NCBI GenBank assembly: GCA_000710935.1
Contig: BAYV01000015.1
Location: 124,001 to 188,000, forward strand
DNA: 64,000 bases
Origin: Iodidimonas nitroreducens
Lineage (GTDB): Bacteria > Pseudomonadota > Alphaproteobacteria > Sphingomonadales > Rhodothalassiaceae
Direction of reading: 5' to 3'
Part shown: positions 15,377-20,233 of the stretch, piece after piece
How the letters are laid out: every line of letters begins with the position of its first letter
Position numbering within the stretch: position 1 is the first letter of the stretch
Translations under genes and position numbers: made by a program
Notes under the pieces: generated by a model
The model's database searches: none
The model's input: the letters and a program-made list of their open reading frames with translations, nothing else
Told to the model about the DNA's origin: nothing

Positions 15377-16594
15377 TCAGCGATTGGCCCCGGTGTGCTG
15401 CACCGCTTCAAGCTTGGCGATCTGATTGCGATGCACCTCATCAGGGCCATCGGCCAAGCGCAGGGTGCGGGCCTGCGCATAGGCATAGGCAAGGCCGAAA
15501 TCATCCGAAACCCCGCCGCCACCATGGGCCTGGATCGCCCAATCGATCACCTCGCACGCCATATTGGGGGCGGCCACCTTGATCATGGCGATTTCCTTTT
15601 TCGCCAGCTTATTGCCCACCTCATCCATCATCCAGGCGGCTTTCAGGGTCAAAAGCCGGGCGCTATCGATGCGGATGCGGGCATCGGCAATGCGTTCCGA
15701 CCAGATGCTTTGGCGCAAAACCGGCTTGCCAAAAGCTTCGCGGGCGGCAAGACGGGTGCACATTTTTTCCAGCGCGCGTTCTGCCAAACCGATCAGCCGC
15801 ATACAATGATGAATCCGCCCCGGTCCCAAACGGCCCTGAGCGATTTCAAAGCCCCGGCCCTCACCCAAAAGCATATGATCGGCGGGCACCCGCACATTGG
15901 TGAAGGTCATTTCCGCATGGCCATGGGGGGCATCATCATAGCCAAAAACCGGCAGCATCCGCTTCACCTCAACGCCGGGCGCATCCATCGGCACCAGAAT
16001 CATCGATTGCTGGCGATAGGGATCGCTGTGATCAGGCGATGATTTACCCATGAAGATCAATATTTTGCAGCGGGGATCGCCAGCACCCGATGTCCACCAT
16101 TTGCGGCCATTGATCACATAATGATCGCCATCACGCAGGATGCTGGATTGAATATTGCGGGCATCGGATGAAGCCACATCGGGTTCTGTCATCGCAAAGG
16201 CGGAGCGGATTTCGCCAGCCAAAAGCGGCTTCAGCCAGCGTTCCTGCTGGGCGGGCGTGCCATAGCGTGTCAGCACCTCCATATTGCCGGTATCGGGCGC
16301 CGAGCAATTAAACACTTCGGATGCAAAGAACGAGCGGCCCATTTCTTCGGCCAAAGGGGCATAATCGAGATTGGTTAAACCGGCCCCCTGATCGCTTTCG
16401 GGCAGGAATAAATTCCACAGCCCTGCGGCCTTCGCCTTGTCTTTCAGCTCTTCGATGATCGCCAAAGGCTGCCAGCGATCACCGCTCGCCACTTCGGCAA
16501 ACATATCGGCTTCACGCGGATAATAATGCGCATCCATGAACGCGCGCAGGCGGGCGAGAATATCCTTGCAACGGGGCGAATAGGCAAAATCCAT
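15377..16594 (-). CDS. acyl-CoA dehydrogenase (ACAD10/11-like)
   Basis: FAD enzyme that introduces a 2,3-double bond into an acyl-CoA, 405 residues. The flavin/substrate block [14 protein letters not shown] and the C-terminal segment containing [15 protein letters not shown] are typical. The overall pattern, with an N-terminal helical domain and [11 protein letters not shown]-like motif (here [16 protein letters not shown]), matches the ACAD10/11 subgroup that handles long or branched or hydroxylated acyl-CoAs. The substrate is not determinable here. It is a single gene on the minus strand between the Mla operon and the aromatic fusion gene, and it lies downstream of that gene's terminator. 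Confidence 0.9.
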
Positions 16595-16701
16595 GATATG
16601 CGATCCTCAAAGCCATGTGACTGTCCCCATTATCGGCCCTGCCCGCCGGGAAAGCCACCGCCAAAAACCGGAGCCTTTTCTATAATTCCATCCCCCCGCA
16701 A

Positions 16702-16738
16702 AAAAACCGGTCGGCGCAAGGCGCACCGGCCGGTTTTT
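16702..16738 (-). terminator. Rho-independent terminator of the pheA-aro fusion gene
   Basis: Read on the minus strand, AAAAACCGG-CCGG... pairs with a GC-rich return arm ending CCGGTTTTTTT, giving a stem of about 13 pairs with small imperfections around a short loop and a run of seven T. It starts about 30 bases after the fusion gene stop. Confidence 0.8.
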
Positions 16739-16766
16739 ATCTGTGATCAATCTGCCCCGGCCCTGA

Positions 16767-18869
16767 TCAGGCCAGTTCTTCCATCATCTGTTCAAACATC
16801 GGGAAGGTGAGTGCCTGCGGGCCATCCGACAAGGCTTCTTCCGGCTTGGGATGGAATTCCACGATCAGGCCATCCGCGCCCACGGCTTTGGCCGCCCGCG
16901 CCATGGGGATCACCATATCACGCCGCCCCACCGCATGGCTGGGATCAACGATCACCGGCAGATGGCTCATTTGCTTGAGCAAAGGCACCGCAGACAGATC
17001 GAGGGTATTGCGGGTCGCCGGCTCGAAGGTGCGGATGCCCCGTTCACACAAAATCACCTGCTGATTGCCTTCCGACAGAATATATTCCGCCGCCTGCAAT
17101 AATTCATCGAGGGAGGCCATCATGCCGCGCTTCAAAAGCACCGGGCGATGGGTCCGCCCCACCAGTTTCAACAGCGGGAAATTCTGCATATTGCGCGCCC
17201 CGATCTGCAAGATATCGGAGTGTTTGGCAACCTCGAGCACCTGATCGGTGGACAGCACTTCCGTTACAATCGGCAGGCCATGGCGATCCCCCGCCTGTTT
17301 CAAAAGATCGAGCCCTTCAAAGCCCATGCCCTGAAAGCTATAGGGATTGGTGCGGGGCTTGAAACAGCCGCCGCGTAAAAGTGTGGCCCCATTCGCCCGC
17401 ACATGTTCGGCACAGGCCATCACCTGCTCTGCCGATTCCACCGAGCACGGCCCGGCAATCACCGTGAAGCCTTTGCCGATGCTGGCCGATCCCACATGGA
17501 TGACCGTATCATCGGGCTTATGCTGACGGCTGGCGAGCTTCCAGCCCTTGGGCGCAGCCGCCACCGGGGCGGCATCGGCTTTAGCCTTTTCCGGGGCCTT
17601 TTTGGTGGCGATTTTTGCGGCTTTCCCCGCTGCCAGATCCACCGCCTGCACATCATGGCGCAATTGATCGGGCGATATTTCGGTGGGGGCCACATCTTCG
17701 GAGGGATAGCAGCCGAGCACTTTCAAAAAGCGCGTGCGCCGGGCCAGATCATCGAGGGCAGCGCGGACCTCGCTATCGCGGGCATTACCCAGAAGGTCGA
17801 TATAGAAAAGCTCTTCCCATGGATTGCCATGGAGGGGACGGGATTCGAGCTTGAGCATATTGATCCCATGATTGCGGAAGACCAACAGGGCATCCACCAA
17901 GGCCCCGGGCTTTTGATCCACCGAAAGCACCAGCGTGGTTTTGGCGGGCACGCTTTCGGGTACAATGGCAGGGGTGCGCGCCACAATGATGAAGCGGGTG
18001 TGATTCTGGCGCTGATTGGCCAGATCGCTTTTAATGTCATATAAACCCCATAGCGCCCCGGCTTCACGCGAGCCAATGGCCGCCGCTTCAGGGCCGGCAT
18101 CCGCCACCCGCTCCATGGCGTGGGATGTGCTTTCGCAATAAACGATTTCCACATCGCCAAGACGGGCGAGGAAATGGCTGCATTGGGCATGCACCTGCGG
18201 ATGCACATAAAGGGCTTTGATCTGCTCGATCTTCTGATCGGGATCGGCGGCGAGCAGGCAATGCTCGATCTTGTGCGTCACCTCACCCACGATGGAAAGA
18301 CCGGTGTGCTGCAACAGATCATACACATCATTGATGCTGCCTGATGTGGAATTTTCGATGGGCAGAACGGCATAATCCGCCTCGCCGCTTTCGGCCTTTT
18401 TGAAAACGCCATCAAAAGTATCGCAGCCCAGTTCCACGATCTTACCTGCCCGCCGAGCAAAATATTTCTGGCACGCCGCCTGACTATAAGACCCCGCCCC
18501 GCCAAGAAACGCCACCCGCTTGAGCTTGCTGCCATCCTCGGCATTTTCCCGGGCATGCAGGCTCGCCTGCTGCAACAAAACCGAATCCTCGATAATGCCC
18601 TGAAACAATTTTGTTACCAGATGCGCATCAAGCCCCAGATCACGGCCCCGGCGGATCATCGACACAAGGCTTTTGCGTTCCTGGGATGTATCGCGCACCG
18701 GTTGGCCGCTTTGCTGTTTGGTTTCGGCGACTTTGAGGCTTAAACCGCGCCGGGTGGCCAAAAGCTCCAGCAGCTTTTGATCGACATCTGAAATTCTGGC
18801 GCGGGTATCATCCAGCCCAATGCTCGCATTTTTGCCGTGGACTGGCTCTTTCGTGGATGGCGTGCTCAT
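16767..18869 (-). CDS. fused chorismate mutase / prephenate dehydratase / ACT / DAHP synthase
   Basis: A 700-residue multidomain enzyme. Residues about 18-105 are an AroQ-type chorismate mutase. Residues 116-300 are prephenate dehydratase, with the catalytic TRF at 291-293. Residues 310-385 are an ACT domain carrying the Phe-binding motifs GALV (322-325) and ESRP (342-345). A Lys/Ala/Pro-rich linker spans about 390-455. Residues 465-700 are a type I-beta (KDOPS-like) DAHP synthase, with AGPCSVES at 472-479 and [12 protein letters not shown] from 503. One chain therefore holds the first shikimate step and the two steps from chorismate to phenylpyruvate, with feedback by Phe expected. There is no frameshift between the parts. 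It is preceded by a Phe-rich leader with an attenuator and followed by a strong terminator, so it is monocistronic. AAGGA lies 11 bases before the ATG. Confidence 0.93.
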
Positions 18870-18890
18870 GATCTGTGGTGTCCTTCACAT

Positions 18891-18920
18891 AAAAAAACCT
18901 CCCGGGGGTTCCGGGAGGTT
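18891..18920 (-). terminator. attenuator terminator upstream of the pheA-aro fusion gene
   Basis: On the minus strand AACCTCCCGG (18920-18911) pairs perfectly with CCGGGAGGTT (18905-18896) around a five-base loop, and the stem runs into a seven-T tract. It lies between the leader peptide stop and the structural gene start, 22 bases before the ATG. The placement is that of an amino-acid attenuator. Confidence 0.9.
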
Positions 18921-18948
18921 TGCTCGTTTCAAAGATGCTGTGTGCTGA

Positions 18949-19032
18949 TCAGCAGCCGAACGGATTCGCAACCTCCCGGATGGGGGGTGTAAAAAAGAAC
19001 CCAAAATAAAAGCTGCAGATTTTTCTATTCAT
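18949..19032 (-). CDS. phenylalanine-rich leader peptide of the attenuator
   Basis: A 27-codon ORF that starts with ATG at 19032 and stops with TGA at 18949. Residues 8-14 read FYFGFFF, and a further Phe is codon 25, so six Phe codons and one Tyr codon fall in a tiny peptide. AGGG lies seven bases upstream. The function inferred is ribosome sensing of charged tRNA-Phe, as in the enterobacterial pheA leader. The peptide itself has no expected product function. Confidence 0.88.
   Translation of the reverse strand: MNRKICSFYFGFFFTPPIREVANPFGC
18970..18979 (-). promoter_or_regulatory. antiterminator arm inside the leader reading frame
   Basis: CCGGGAGGTT here is an exact copy of the 3' arm of the attenuator terminator (18905-18896), so it can pair instead with the terminator's 5' arm (18920-18911), 49 bases downstream. 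It covers leader codons 18-22, just after the Phe cluster. A ribosome stalled at codons 12-14 would leave it free, whereas a ribosome reaching the stop would mask it. Confidence 0.82.
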
Positions 19033-19038
19033 AGGGCA

Positions 19039-19067
19039 TCCCTATCCCCATATCCACGCAATGTCAA
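19039..19067 (-). promoter_or_regulatory. candidate promoter of the pheA-aro leader
   Basis: On the minus strand a perfect TTGACA (19067-19062) is followed after 17 bases by TAGGGA (19044-19039), a poor -10. Transcription would begin at or near the leader ATG, making the leader nearly leaderless. The -35 is strong, while the -10 assignment is uncertain. Confidence 0.4.
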
Positions 19068-19134
19068 TAAAACTTTTCGCCCTTTCACGCAACAACCGGT
19101 CATTTCCTTGATCGCAGGGTTTTTTTATGGCTGA

Positions 19135-19174
19135 TTGGTCATGAGATACAATGTCGTTAAATCCTCATGACCAA
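19135..19174. promoter_or_regulatory. perfect 11-bp inverted repeat, candidate operator
   Basis: TTGGTCATGAG (19135-19145) and CTCATGACCAA (19164-19174) are perfect inverted copies with centres 29 bases apart. They enclose TACAAT, a plausible -10, at 19147-19152. It lies 79 bases before the iminopeptidase start and 100 bases beyond the leader peptide start, so it could serve either divergent unit. No repressor is recognisable from the word. The rest of this 383-base gap holds the attenuator elements listed separately. Confidence 0.5.
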
Positions 19175-19252
19175 ATGGTGTTTTTGTATAGGACCGAAGC
19201 TGATATTAAGATGACGATGTGATTGAAATCAATTGAACCAGGCGCACATATT

Positions 19253-20233
19253 ATGGATATGCCCAGATCAGACCAGCGCAGCCTTTACCCCCCGATTGCC
19301 TGCTATGACACAGGATTTCTCGATACCGGAGATGGCCATCGGCTTTATTATGAAGAATCGGGCCATCCCAATGGCCTGCCGGTGGTTTTTTTGCATGGCG
19401 GACCGGGGGGCGGCACATCGCCGGTGCAGCGGCGTTTTTTTGATCCCAAACGCTATCGCATCATTTTATTCGATCAGCGCGGCTGCGGGAAATCTGAGCC
19501 TTTCGCCAGTCTTGAAGCCAATACAAGCCATCATCTGATCAAAGACATCGAGCATTTGCGCCAAAGCCTTGGCATTGATCGCTGGCTGGTTTTTGGCGGA
19601 TCATGGGGCAGCACGCTGGGGCTTCTTTATGCCCAAAAACATCCCGAGCATGTGATCGGGCTGGTTTTGCGCGGTATTTTTCTGATGCGTGAAAGCGAGA
19701 TCGATTGGTTTTATCGCTGCGGCACCAATGCCATTTTCCCCGAAGCCTGGCAGGCTTTCATCGCGGATATCCCGCCCGAGGAACGGGGCGACCTGATCGA
19801 AGCCTATTATCGGCGGCTGACATCGGATGACGAGCATATCCAATTAAAAGCCGCAAAAGCCTGGAGCCGCTGGGAAAGCAGCTGTGTGACCCTTGTACCC
19901 GAGGAACAGCAGATCAGAGCCGCCGACAATAGCCGCTTTGCCCTCGCCTTTGCCCGGATCGAATGCCATTTTTTCAAGCATTTGGGATTTTTGGATCAAA
20001 GCGAGGCTATTTTGGCCAATGTTCATCATCTGGCCGCTATTCCCACCATTCTGGTGCAGGGCCGCTATGATGCCATCTGCCCGCCGGTTTCCGCCTTTGA
20101 ATTAAAGCAAGCCATGCCCCATGCCGATTTAAGGCTGGTTCCAGTGGCTGGCCATTCCGCGTTTGAGCCGCAGATCGTGCATGAACTGGTGAATGCCACC
20201 GATCATTTCGCCCGGCTTAACAGGCGCGGCTAG
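19253..20233 (+). CDS. pip: proline iminopeptidase
   Basis: Alpha/beta-hydrolase of peptidase family S33 that removes N-terminal proline from peptides. Family blocks are HGGPGGG near residue 50, DQRGCGKS near 80, and the nucleophile elbow GGSWGS near residue 115. Asp (GRYDAICPP) and His (VAGHSAFEP) complete the triad. The length (326 residues) is normal. A TTG start at 19223 is possible; the ATG at 19253, with AGG ten bases upstream, is preferred. It is a single gene behind a perfect inverted repeat. Confidence 0.93.
   Translation: MDMPRSDQRSLYPPIACYDTGFLDTGDGHRLYYEESGHPNGLPVVFLHGGPGGGTSPVQRRFFDPKRYRIILFDQRGCGKSEPFASLEANTSHHLIKDIEHLRQSLGIDRWLVFGGSWGSTLGLLYAQKHPEHVIGLVLRGIFLMRESEIDWFYRCGTNAIFPEAWQAFIADIPPEERGDLIEAYYRRLTSDDEHIQLKAAKAWSRWESSCVTLVPEEQQIRAADNSRFALAFARIECHFFKHLGFLDQSEAILANVHHLAAIPTILVQGRYDAICPPVSAFELKQAMPHADLRLVPVAGHSAFEPQIVHELVNATDHFARLNRRG

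Follow-up and report, generated by a model that had tools for sequence, protein, structure and literature searches.

A putative, probably leaderless phenylalanine attenuator before a chorismate mutase–prephenate dehydratase–DAHP synthase fusion gene of Iodidimonas nitroreducens

INTRODUCTION

Why should a short reading frame crowded with phenylalanine codons, followed by a terminator, stand before a gene for a fused aromatic enzyme in an alphaproteobacterium, and where might such an arrangement have come from? The locus in question lies in a 64,000 nt stretch of the Iodidimonas nitroreducens genome (contig BAYV01000015.1, positions 124,001 to 188,000), referred to here as the window. A preliminary description, made from the letters of the sequence and its open reading frames, had recognized there a complete set of parts for ribosome-mediated attenuation by Phe-tRNA. 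We have followed this up by comparing homologous loci, folding the leader RNAs with the ribosome at successive positions and placing the enzyme in phylogenetic trees. We consider it very probable that the element is a Phe attenuator, possibly responding to Tyr as well, which acts from a probably leaderless mRNA on a gene for chorismate mutase (CM), prephenate dehydratase (PDT), ACT and DAHP synthase (DAHPS) domains, and that the PheA part of this gene, most likely together with the attenuator, stems from the Gammaproteobacteria.

RESULTS

Parts of the putative attenuator

The 27-codon leader with FYFGFFF at codons 8–14 was found as it had been described, at 19032–18949 on the minus strand (Table 1). 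Codons for Phe, the end product, are clustered in it, which is one hallmark of an attenuator, and an intrinsic terminator, another such hallmark, is predicted between the leader and the structural gene. This terminator (18921–18895, minus strand) is indeed a perfect 10-pair stem, or one of 11 pairs if an extra A–T pair is counted, with a loop of 5 nt; a run of seven T residues at 18897–18891 starts inside the stem, and the pair count is the highest among the 11 terminator-like sites listed for 16500–19300. The 10-base copy of the terminator 3' arm had been correctly placed at 18979–18970, but it covers codons 18–21 and not 18–22. On both strands of the window together, 12 short ORFs (8–60 codons) reach at least four Phe/Tyr in eight codons, and the leader ORF is the only one of the 12 with a strong terminator within 130 nt downstream. 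The part of the leader behind the Phe run forms a duplex of −19.8 kcal/mol with the terminator 5' arm, as against a mean of −8.0 for 1000 shuffles (p 0.001), and the fold of the whole leader has a z of −2.32, with 4 of 200 shuffles equally stable.

Table 1. Features of the putative attenuator and the gene behind it (positions in the window)
Feature	Position	Strand	Basis and remarks
Leader peptide ORF, 27 codons, MNRKICSFYFGFFFTPPIREVANPFGC	18949..19032	-	ATG at 19032, stop TGA 18951-18949; sequence reading and homologous leaders
Sensor codons 8-14, FYFGFFF (5 Phe, 1 Tyr)	18991..19011	-	Sequence reading, ribosome-position folding
Region 1, ACACCCCCC, rich in C and possibly a protector arm, adjoining region 2	18982..18990	-	Suggested by sequence and MFE fold; weak in the window leader
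Region 2, CCGGGAGGTT, copy of terminator 3' arm; would pair with region 3 to form the antiterminator	18970..18979	-	Duplex test, p 0.001
Region 3, terminator 5' arm AAACCTCCCGG	18911..18921	-	Fold, duplex test, terminator scan
Region 4, terminator 3' arm CCGGGAGGTTT; T run continues to 18891	18895..18905	-	Fold, duplex test, terminator scan
-35-like hexamer TTGACA, 35 nt upstream of the leader ATG	19062..19067	-	Sequence reading; same hexamer (at least 5/6) at 35-37 nt in 6/6 f1 leaders
Possible -10 TAGGGA, 17 nt spacer	19039..19044	-	By eye; poor match to TATAAT; not listed by promoter scan
Gene under putative control of the attenuator (700 aa), with domains for chorismate mutase type II, prephenate dehydratase, ACT and DAHP synthase I (beta type)	16767..18869	-	Pfam, catalytic motifs
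Terminator-like hairpin after the gene	16712..16728	-	Consensus match only

Conservation of the leader

Seven genomes of the family of the window (f1, called Iodidimonadaceae in this analysis; Alphaproteobacteria) were searched, and six have the gene, the genome without a match being G005, which is 64% complete. A Phe/Tyr leader and a terminator precede the gene in 6/6 of the gene-bearing genomes, that is, in five besides that of the window, and the leader is kept while the gene products share 55–86% protein identity. The leader reads MIMQRSFFYFGFYFTSPTGEVV in G002 and MNISRSFTYFGFFYTPPTGKGAHPFAD in G001 and begins with MSSIRTFYFGRFYFFRPAGG in G006 and with MSRSRSYYYFGIFTFRPCGG in G004, each with a terminator behind it; G003, whose gene is without the DAHP synthase part, has the leader MDVKMTSARLGFFAFFTGFPQGGAG (the terminators of G003 and of locus L006 were read by eye). 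The terminator arms of G004 and G006 have GGCGGG in place of GGGAGG and the copy in the leader changes along with them, a three-way covariation.

Phe/Tyr-rich ORFs followed by a terminator also occur before homologous genes of several gammaproteobacterial families: outside f1 we found such leaders in Alteromonadaceae (MKLCNRNIIARFFVFITFI and others), in the MAG Gpa_12, in Vibrio-like and enteric-like families and in Shewanella-like f231, f242, f251, f254, f247 and f230, labels such as Shewanella-like being our own reading of the genome families. In the wider set a leader was present at 58 of 74 loci, 51 of them recognized by scan and seven accepted by eye, most of these seven with only three Phe/Tyr in eight codons; the scan alone was empty at 23 of the 74, and scan and eye together found no leader at 16. 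Eleven further loci yielded nine leaders, L143 giving none and L141 being without upstream DNA. Homologous leaders thus have both the Phe codons and the paired arms on which the preliminary description had staked its claim, and for 19 of the 21 leaders examined the duplex between the arms was better than that of shuffled sequences (p<0.05), the exceptions being L003 (p 0.242) and L006 (p 0.078).

The arrangement is not a general feature of alphaproteobacterial pheA genes, a notion that we rejected because none of 22 PDT loci from the same order (one of which, L017, offers only 100 nt of upstream sequence) had an ORF with at least three Phe/Tyr in eight codons followed by a terminator; the best density at these loci was four in eight codons (L010 and L022), the others having at most three. 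For the class II DAHP synthase of f1 we also rejected a leader, as none of the five loci read was convincing.

The Rfam model Phe_leader (RF01859) aligned with the window element over its full length (model positions 1–125 of 125) with 29.6 bits and an E value of 0.0062, and at the gathering score of 55 bits this is no match. The relatives L073 (68.4) and L096 (79.0) exceed that score, and the model found nothing at E≤1 in L002–L006 of f1 and in L034 of the Alteromonadaceae. The window leader probably functions as RF01859 does and is a likely divergent homologue of it, but the curators' rule does not make it a member.

Predicted switch with the position of the ribosome

In a folding analysis with the ribosome set on each codon in turn and the nascent RNA truncated immediately ahead of region 4, both alternative structures were predicted and the RNA switched between them with ribosome position. 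In all of the 21 leaders folded, which are a hand choice across families and mutually related, region 3 was sequestered in the antiterminator as long as the ribosome stood on the Phe/Tyr codons, and it was freed 0–4 codons past the last of these (hand count). For the window leader the antiterminator value was 0.91 with the ribosome on the Phe/Tyr run as against 0.04 at the stop codon, so that the predicted element includes an antiterminator which competes with the terminator in dependence on the ribosome. An antiterminator on the run that weakened at the stop codon, by cut-offs fixed after the first folding results had been seen, was found in 21/21 leaders at footprint offsets of 12, 14, 16 and 18, and in 73 of 420 shuffled controls at offset 16; at this offset L002, L004, L005 and L033 retained 0.41–0.49 antiterminator at the stop codon. 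At full length and equilibrium the terminator won in 20 of the 21 leaders (0.86–1.00), the exception being L005, with the antiterminator even then (terminator 0.00). When RNA cut before region 4 was folded with no ribosome, the window leader (0.91) and several others favoured the antiterminator, which suggests that the protector arm is weak and that termination would need translation. The conserved leaders and the switching predicted for them support the view that the parts for attenuation by Phe-tRNA are complete.

Position of the putative promoter and alternative readings

Seven groups together comprise 37 leaders, and in 35 of these a TTGACA-like hexamer (at least 5/6) lies 35–37 nt ahead of the ATG, as against 0 of the 21 other leaders; the families were pooled into these two sets after the distances had been seen, and the background is 34 in 3770 positions. 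All leaders agree within groups except those of the Alteromonadaceae (15/17): the hexamer is there in f1 (6/6), Gpa_12 (1/1), f231 (4/4), f251 (2/2), f254 (1/1) and f242 (6/6) and is absent from f230 (0/4) and from f208, f204, f258 and f248 (0/17 together). In L069 and L072, which account for the two misses, TTGCAC stands at 35 nt. These figures are based on 58 leaders; among later ones, L106, L110 and L111 have TTGACA at 36–37 nt (by eye), and of nine others six have a match of at least 5/6 at 35–37 nt, L138 has it at 38 nt and L140 and L142 are without it. The spacer measures 17–18 nt in 5/6 f1 leaders, and the −10 element ends 6–7 nt before the ATG; transcription would therefore begin on the ATG itself and leave no space for a ribosome-binding site (in G003 no good −10 was seen). 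Both this spacing and the conserved hexamer lead us to think that the leader mRNA is probably leaderless, with its start codon at or within 1–2 nt of the transcription start.

Leaderless leader-peptide RNAs are not new in principle, since the trpL leader RNA of Sinorhizobium meliloti is described as beginning at its ATG (PMC7298713) and the ilvB leader transcript of Corynebacterium diphtheriae as starting at the start codon (PMC5784534). In the open-access literature searched we found no earlier report of leaderless Phe leaders, and no paper on pheA attenuation in alphaproteobacteria or Alteromonas.

The most serious alternative, which we nevertheless regard as unlikely, is that the same attenuator lies within an ordinary 5' leader, transcribed from a start further upstream, the TTGACA at 35–37 nt not being the promoter in use. 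The −10 of the window is weak, a sigma-70 scan lists no promoter there, and the best hexamer of the f204, f208, f230, f258 and f248 leaders is found elsewhere, at 56–74 nt in 15 of the 21 (the full TTGACA of the f230 leaders L128 and L132, at 22–23 nt, fits no promoter for them). However, the hexamer keeps its distance in 35 of 37 leaders while the leader codons diverge; even the two misses keep TTGCAC at the same place, four f1 relatives have TATGGT or TATCCT (by eye) where a −10 ought to be, and trpL of S. meliloti provides a precedent for a start at the ATG. The near (35–37 nt) and far classes of hexamer have changed at least three times on a tree of 97 rows and four times on one of 68 rows. 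Because the early-branching Gpa_12, f251, f1 and Alteromonadaceae have the near form, this may be the older state, a reading limited by midpoint rooting and long branches.

If, on the other hand, the terminator were constitutive, the freed leader RNA might serve as a trans-acting small RNA, or encode a functional peptide, as rnTrpL and peTrpL do, and control in cis would be secondary. A terminated leaderless RNA would resemble rnTrpL as described in PMC7298713, but we give this explanation little credence, since the leader peptides, compared by eye, have hardly anything in common apart from their Phe/Tyr runs and the residues that the arms impose, and since arms and codons keep a constant arrangement with respect to the sensor codons, as attenuation in cis needs; the two roles are, besides, not mutually exclusive. 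That a chance ORF precedes a simple terminator can practically be dismissed: no transcript is known for the leader and the next strong ORF upstream (19223–20233, plus strand) is divergent, but the ORF–terminator combination is the single one of its kind in the window, the leader is conserved among f1 members and the duplex and switch tests did better than shuffles.

The putatively regulated gene and its fused DAHP synthase domain

The gene that the attenuator would control is preceded by AAGGA at 18885–18881 and is probably transcribed alone; a terminator-like hairpin stands after it (Table 1). Its ACT domain scores 25.8 bits, under the Pfam cut-off of 27, and its DAHP synthase domain has the catalytic and metal-binding motifs of family I-beta (Cys, His, Glu and Asp) intact. 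The ligands correspond to positions 102, 272, 298 and 309 of the Thermotoga maritima enzyme 1rzm, hand-counted on the alignment. A tRNA match was noted shortly past the end of the fusion gene in G004 (L005, 3765–3849).

By eye, from the motif tables, the fused domains range from intact (five f1 fusions, Gpa_12, L087, L088, L091 and L138–L140) through partly lost (L089, L090, L141–L143 and f242) to those with the motifs mostly gone (f231, f258, L098, L105 and L129). Graded decay with the reading frame still open was seen in L073, L074, L086, L089, L090, L092–L099, L102–L105, L129, L135, L136 and L141–L148. The decayed domain of gammaproteobacterial lineages is possibly a pseudoenzyme with a kept, perhaps regulatory, role. 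We rejected the idea that the fusion is unique to f1, since the order of G775 has many genomes with a fusion, whether intact or decayed. Free-standing DAHP synthases 54–64% identical to the fused domain were observed within the order of G775, in G815 (C19:11412-12185) and many f247 genomes.

The genome of the window (G000) has one class II DAHP synthase besides the fusion, so that a single DAHP synthase in this organism was rejected; the genome search found no other family I enzyme. No prephenate dehydrogenase match (PF02153) was obtained in G001 and G002, which have a gene for a biopterin-dependent hydroxylase (PF00351), probably phenylalanine hydroxylase, and in at least these two species Tyr may therefore come only from Phe. 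Both families are represented in G000 and G003, and G004 and G006 have PF02153 alone. A second, weak prephenate-dehydratase-like match (24–28% identity) was seen in the genus of the window (G002:C7:8750-9427 and G001:C3:31595-32242).

Gammaproteobacterial affinity of the PheA part

Searched with the CM-PDT part, 385 genomes drawn from the Alphaproteobacteria gave no match at E≤1e-60 except that of the window itself, five others matching by the DAHP synthase part only, and 398 genomes drawn from the phylum gave 52 matches at E≤1e-70, its own included. In a CM-PDT tree of 97 rows (reduced from 104 by removal of near-duplicates and second ORFs; the DAHPS tree was reduced from 38 to 36 rows) the f1 sequences form a clade (100/98) within gammaproteobacterial sequences, so that the AroQ-PheA part groups with CM-PDT of the Gammaproteobacteria rather than with PDT of the Alphaproteobacteria. 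A single clade of the f1 CM-PDTs and the 22 PDTs of the same order was rejected (AU p 0.0096), and with it a vertical alphaproteobacterial origin of the CM-PDT part. On these trees the simplest reading is a transfer of the PheA part from Gammaproteobacteria into the f1 ancestor. Because the leader occurs on both sides, the attenuator most likely came along as one unit with it.

Tyr codons and the state of the enzyme

The preliminary description had suggested that the Tyr codon at position 9 might add Tyr sensing. Tyr codons are indeed found in the leaders of 9 of 12 intact fusions vs 2 of 53 others (Fisher p 3.4e-7, a value inflated by kinship), and the densest eight codons hold 15 Tyr and 50 Phe in the intact-fusion leaders as against 2 Tyr and 253 Phe in all others. 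On the tree, however, this comes down to four independent pairs, with one or two in the expected direction and almost none against, which is not significant; 200 random pairings gave on average 1.3 in the same direction and 0.0 in the opposite one. A claim that Tyr codons are exclusive to intact fusions had to be weakened, as the non-intact L142 and L147 have Tyr and as L138, with L033 and L087, brings the intact fusions lacking a Tyr codon to three. The counts lend indirect support to the suggestion that codon 9 of the window leader may sense Tyr-tRNA.

DISCUSSION

In the mechanism that we propose, transcription would start on the leader ATG or directly beside it, and a ribosome would initiate on the leaderless mRNA. 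Under a shortage of Phe-tRNA this ribosome would stall on codons 8–14, region 2 would be free to pair with region 3, the 3:4 terminator would be blocked and the enzyme would be made. With ample Phe-tRNA the ribosome would move over region 2 toward the stop codon and leave region 3 for region 4, so that the terminator would form and transcription would end at about 18891.

The closest counterpart is the pheL leader of enteric pheA (RF01859), with which the window element shares the Phe-rich leader peptide, the competition among regions 2, 3 and 4, the CM-PDT gene downstream and a match to the full-length model, and L073 and L096, which have the same −35 spacing, pass its gathering score. The window element differs in scoring under that threshold, in its alphaproteobacterial host, in the Tyr codon within the run and in the third enzyme domain. 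Moreover, the best hexamer of enteric-like and Vibrio-like leaders lies mostly at 56–74 nt, whereas the −35 of the window lies at 35 nt, so that its mRNA is probably leaderless. In this last respect it would resemble S. meliloti trpL, also an alphaproteobacterial amino-acid attenuator whose RNA is reported to begin at the leader ATG (PMC7298713), although trpL/rnTrpL senses Trp and controls trpE(G). The leaderless or RBS-less ilvB leaders of corynebacteria, with transcripts described as starting at the leader start codon (PMC4046766, PMC5784534), would be similar in the same way.

There are also partial parallels for the mixed sensor and for the fusion. The aroF gene of Corynebacterium glutamicum encodes a DAHP synthase. 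PMC4046766 gives a putative Phe-Tyr-Phe leader for it, and this is a precedent for a sensor with Phe and Tyr codons, though one from the Actinobacteria, before a separate gene and called putative in that paper. The domain order CM-PDT-DAHPS recurs in Shewanella oneidensis, whose aroQ-pheA with a fused aroA(I-beta) pseudogene has been called ‘bizarre’ and ‘of unknown origin’ (Song et al. 2005, PMC1173090), in a text that holds this subclass of DAHP synthase to be unusual in gram-negative bacteria. Shewanella-like genomes have the Phe leader, and a candidate Phe attenuator has been described as conserved in Shewanella (PMC3223726). In contrast to the domain called a pseudogene there, that of the window has its motifs intact, and its intact relatives may offer a source for the Shewanella domain.

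The mechanism proposed here is known, but its setting is unusual; the start is probably leaderless, and the make-up of the enzyme may be linked to the choice of sensor codons. Three points had escaped the preliminary description: the origin in the Gammaproteobacteria, the likely absence of a 5' leader and the occurrence of the fusion elsewhere. One may go further and suppose that a leaderless attenuator and a CM-PDT-DAHPS cassette crossed between classes as a whole, with sensors that tend to read Phe and Tyr where the DAHP synthase is live and for Phe alone where it is dead or absent, the leaderless form being older and the 5' UTR of enteric pheL derived. A live fused DAHP synthase would then feed the whole aromatic pathway. 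We offer this wider scheme tentatively and think it rather doubtful as it stands, but the adaptation of sensor codons to the downstream enzyme is a testable idea.

The presence of this leader in the Iodidimonadaceae would extend the Phe attenuator to an alphaproteobacterial family, where the regulatory RNA probably travelled with its gene. Its relatives add a considerable number of candidates for leaderless leader-peptide mRNAs, which are open to start-site mapping in culturable marine bacteria, and they provide intact counterparts and a graded series of decay for the fused DAHP synthase domain of Shewanella.
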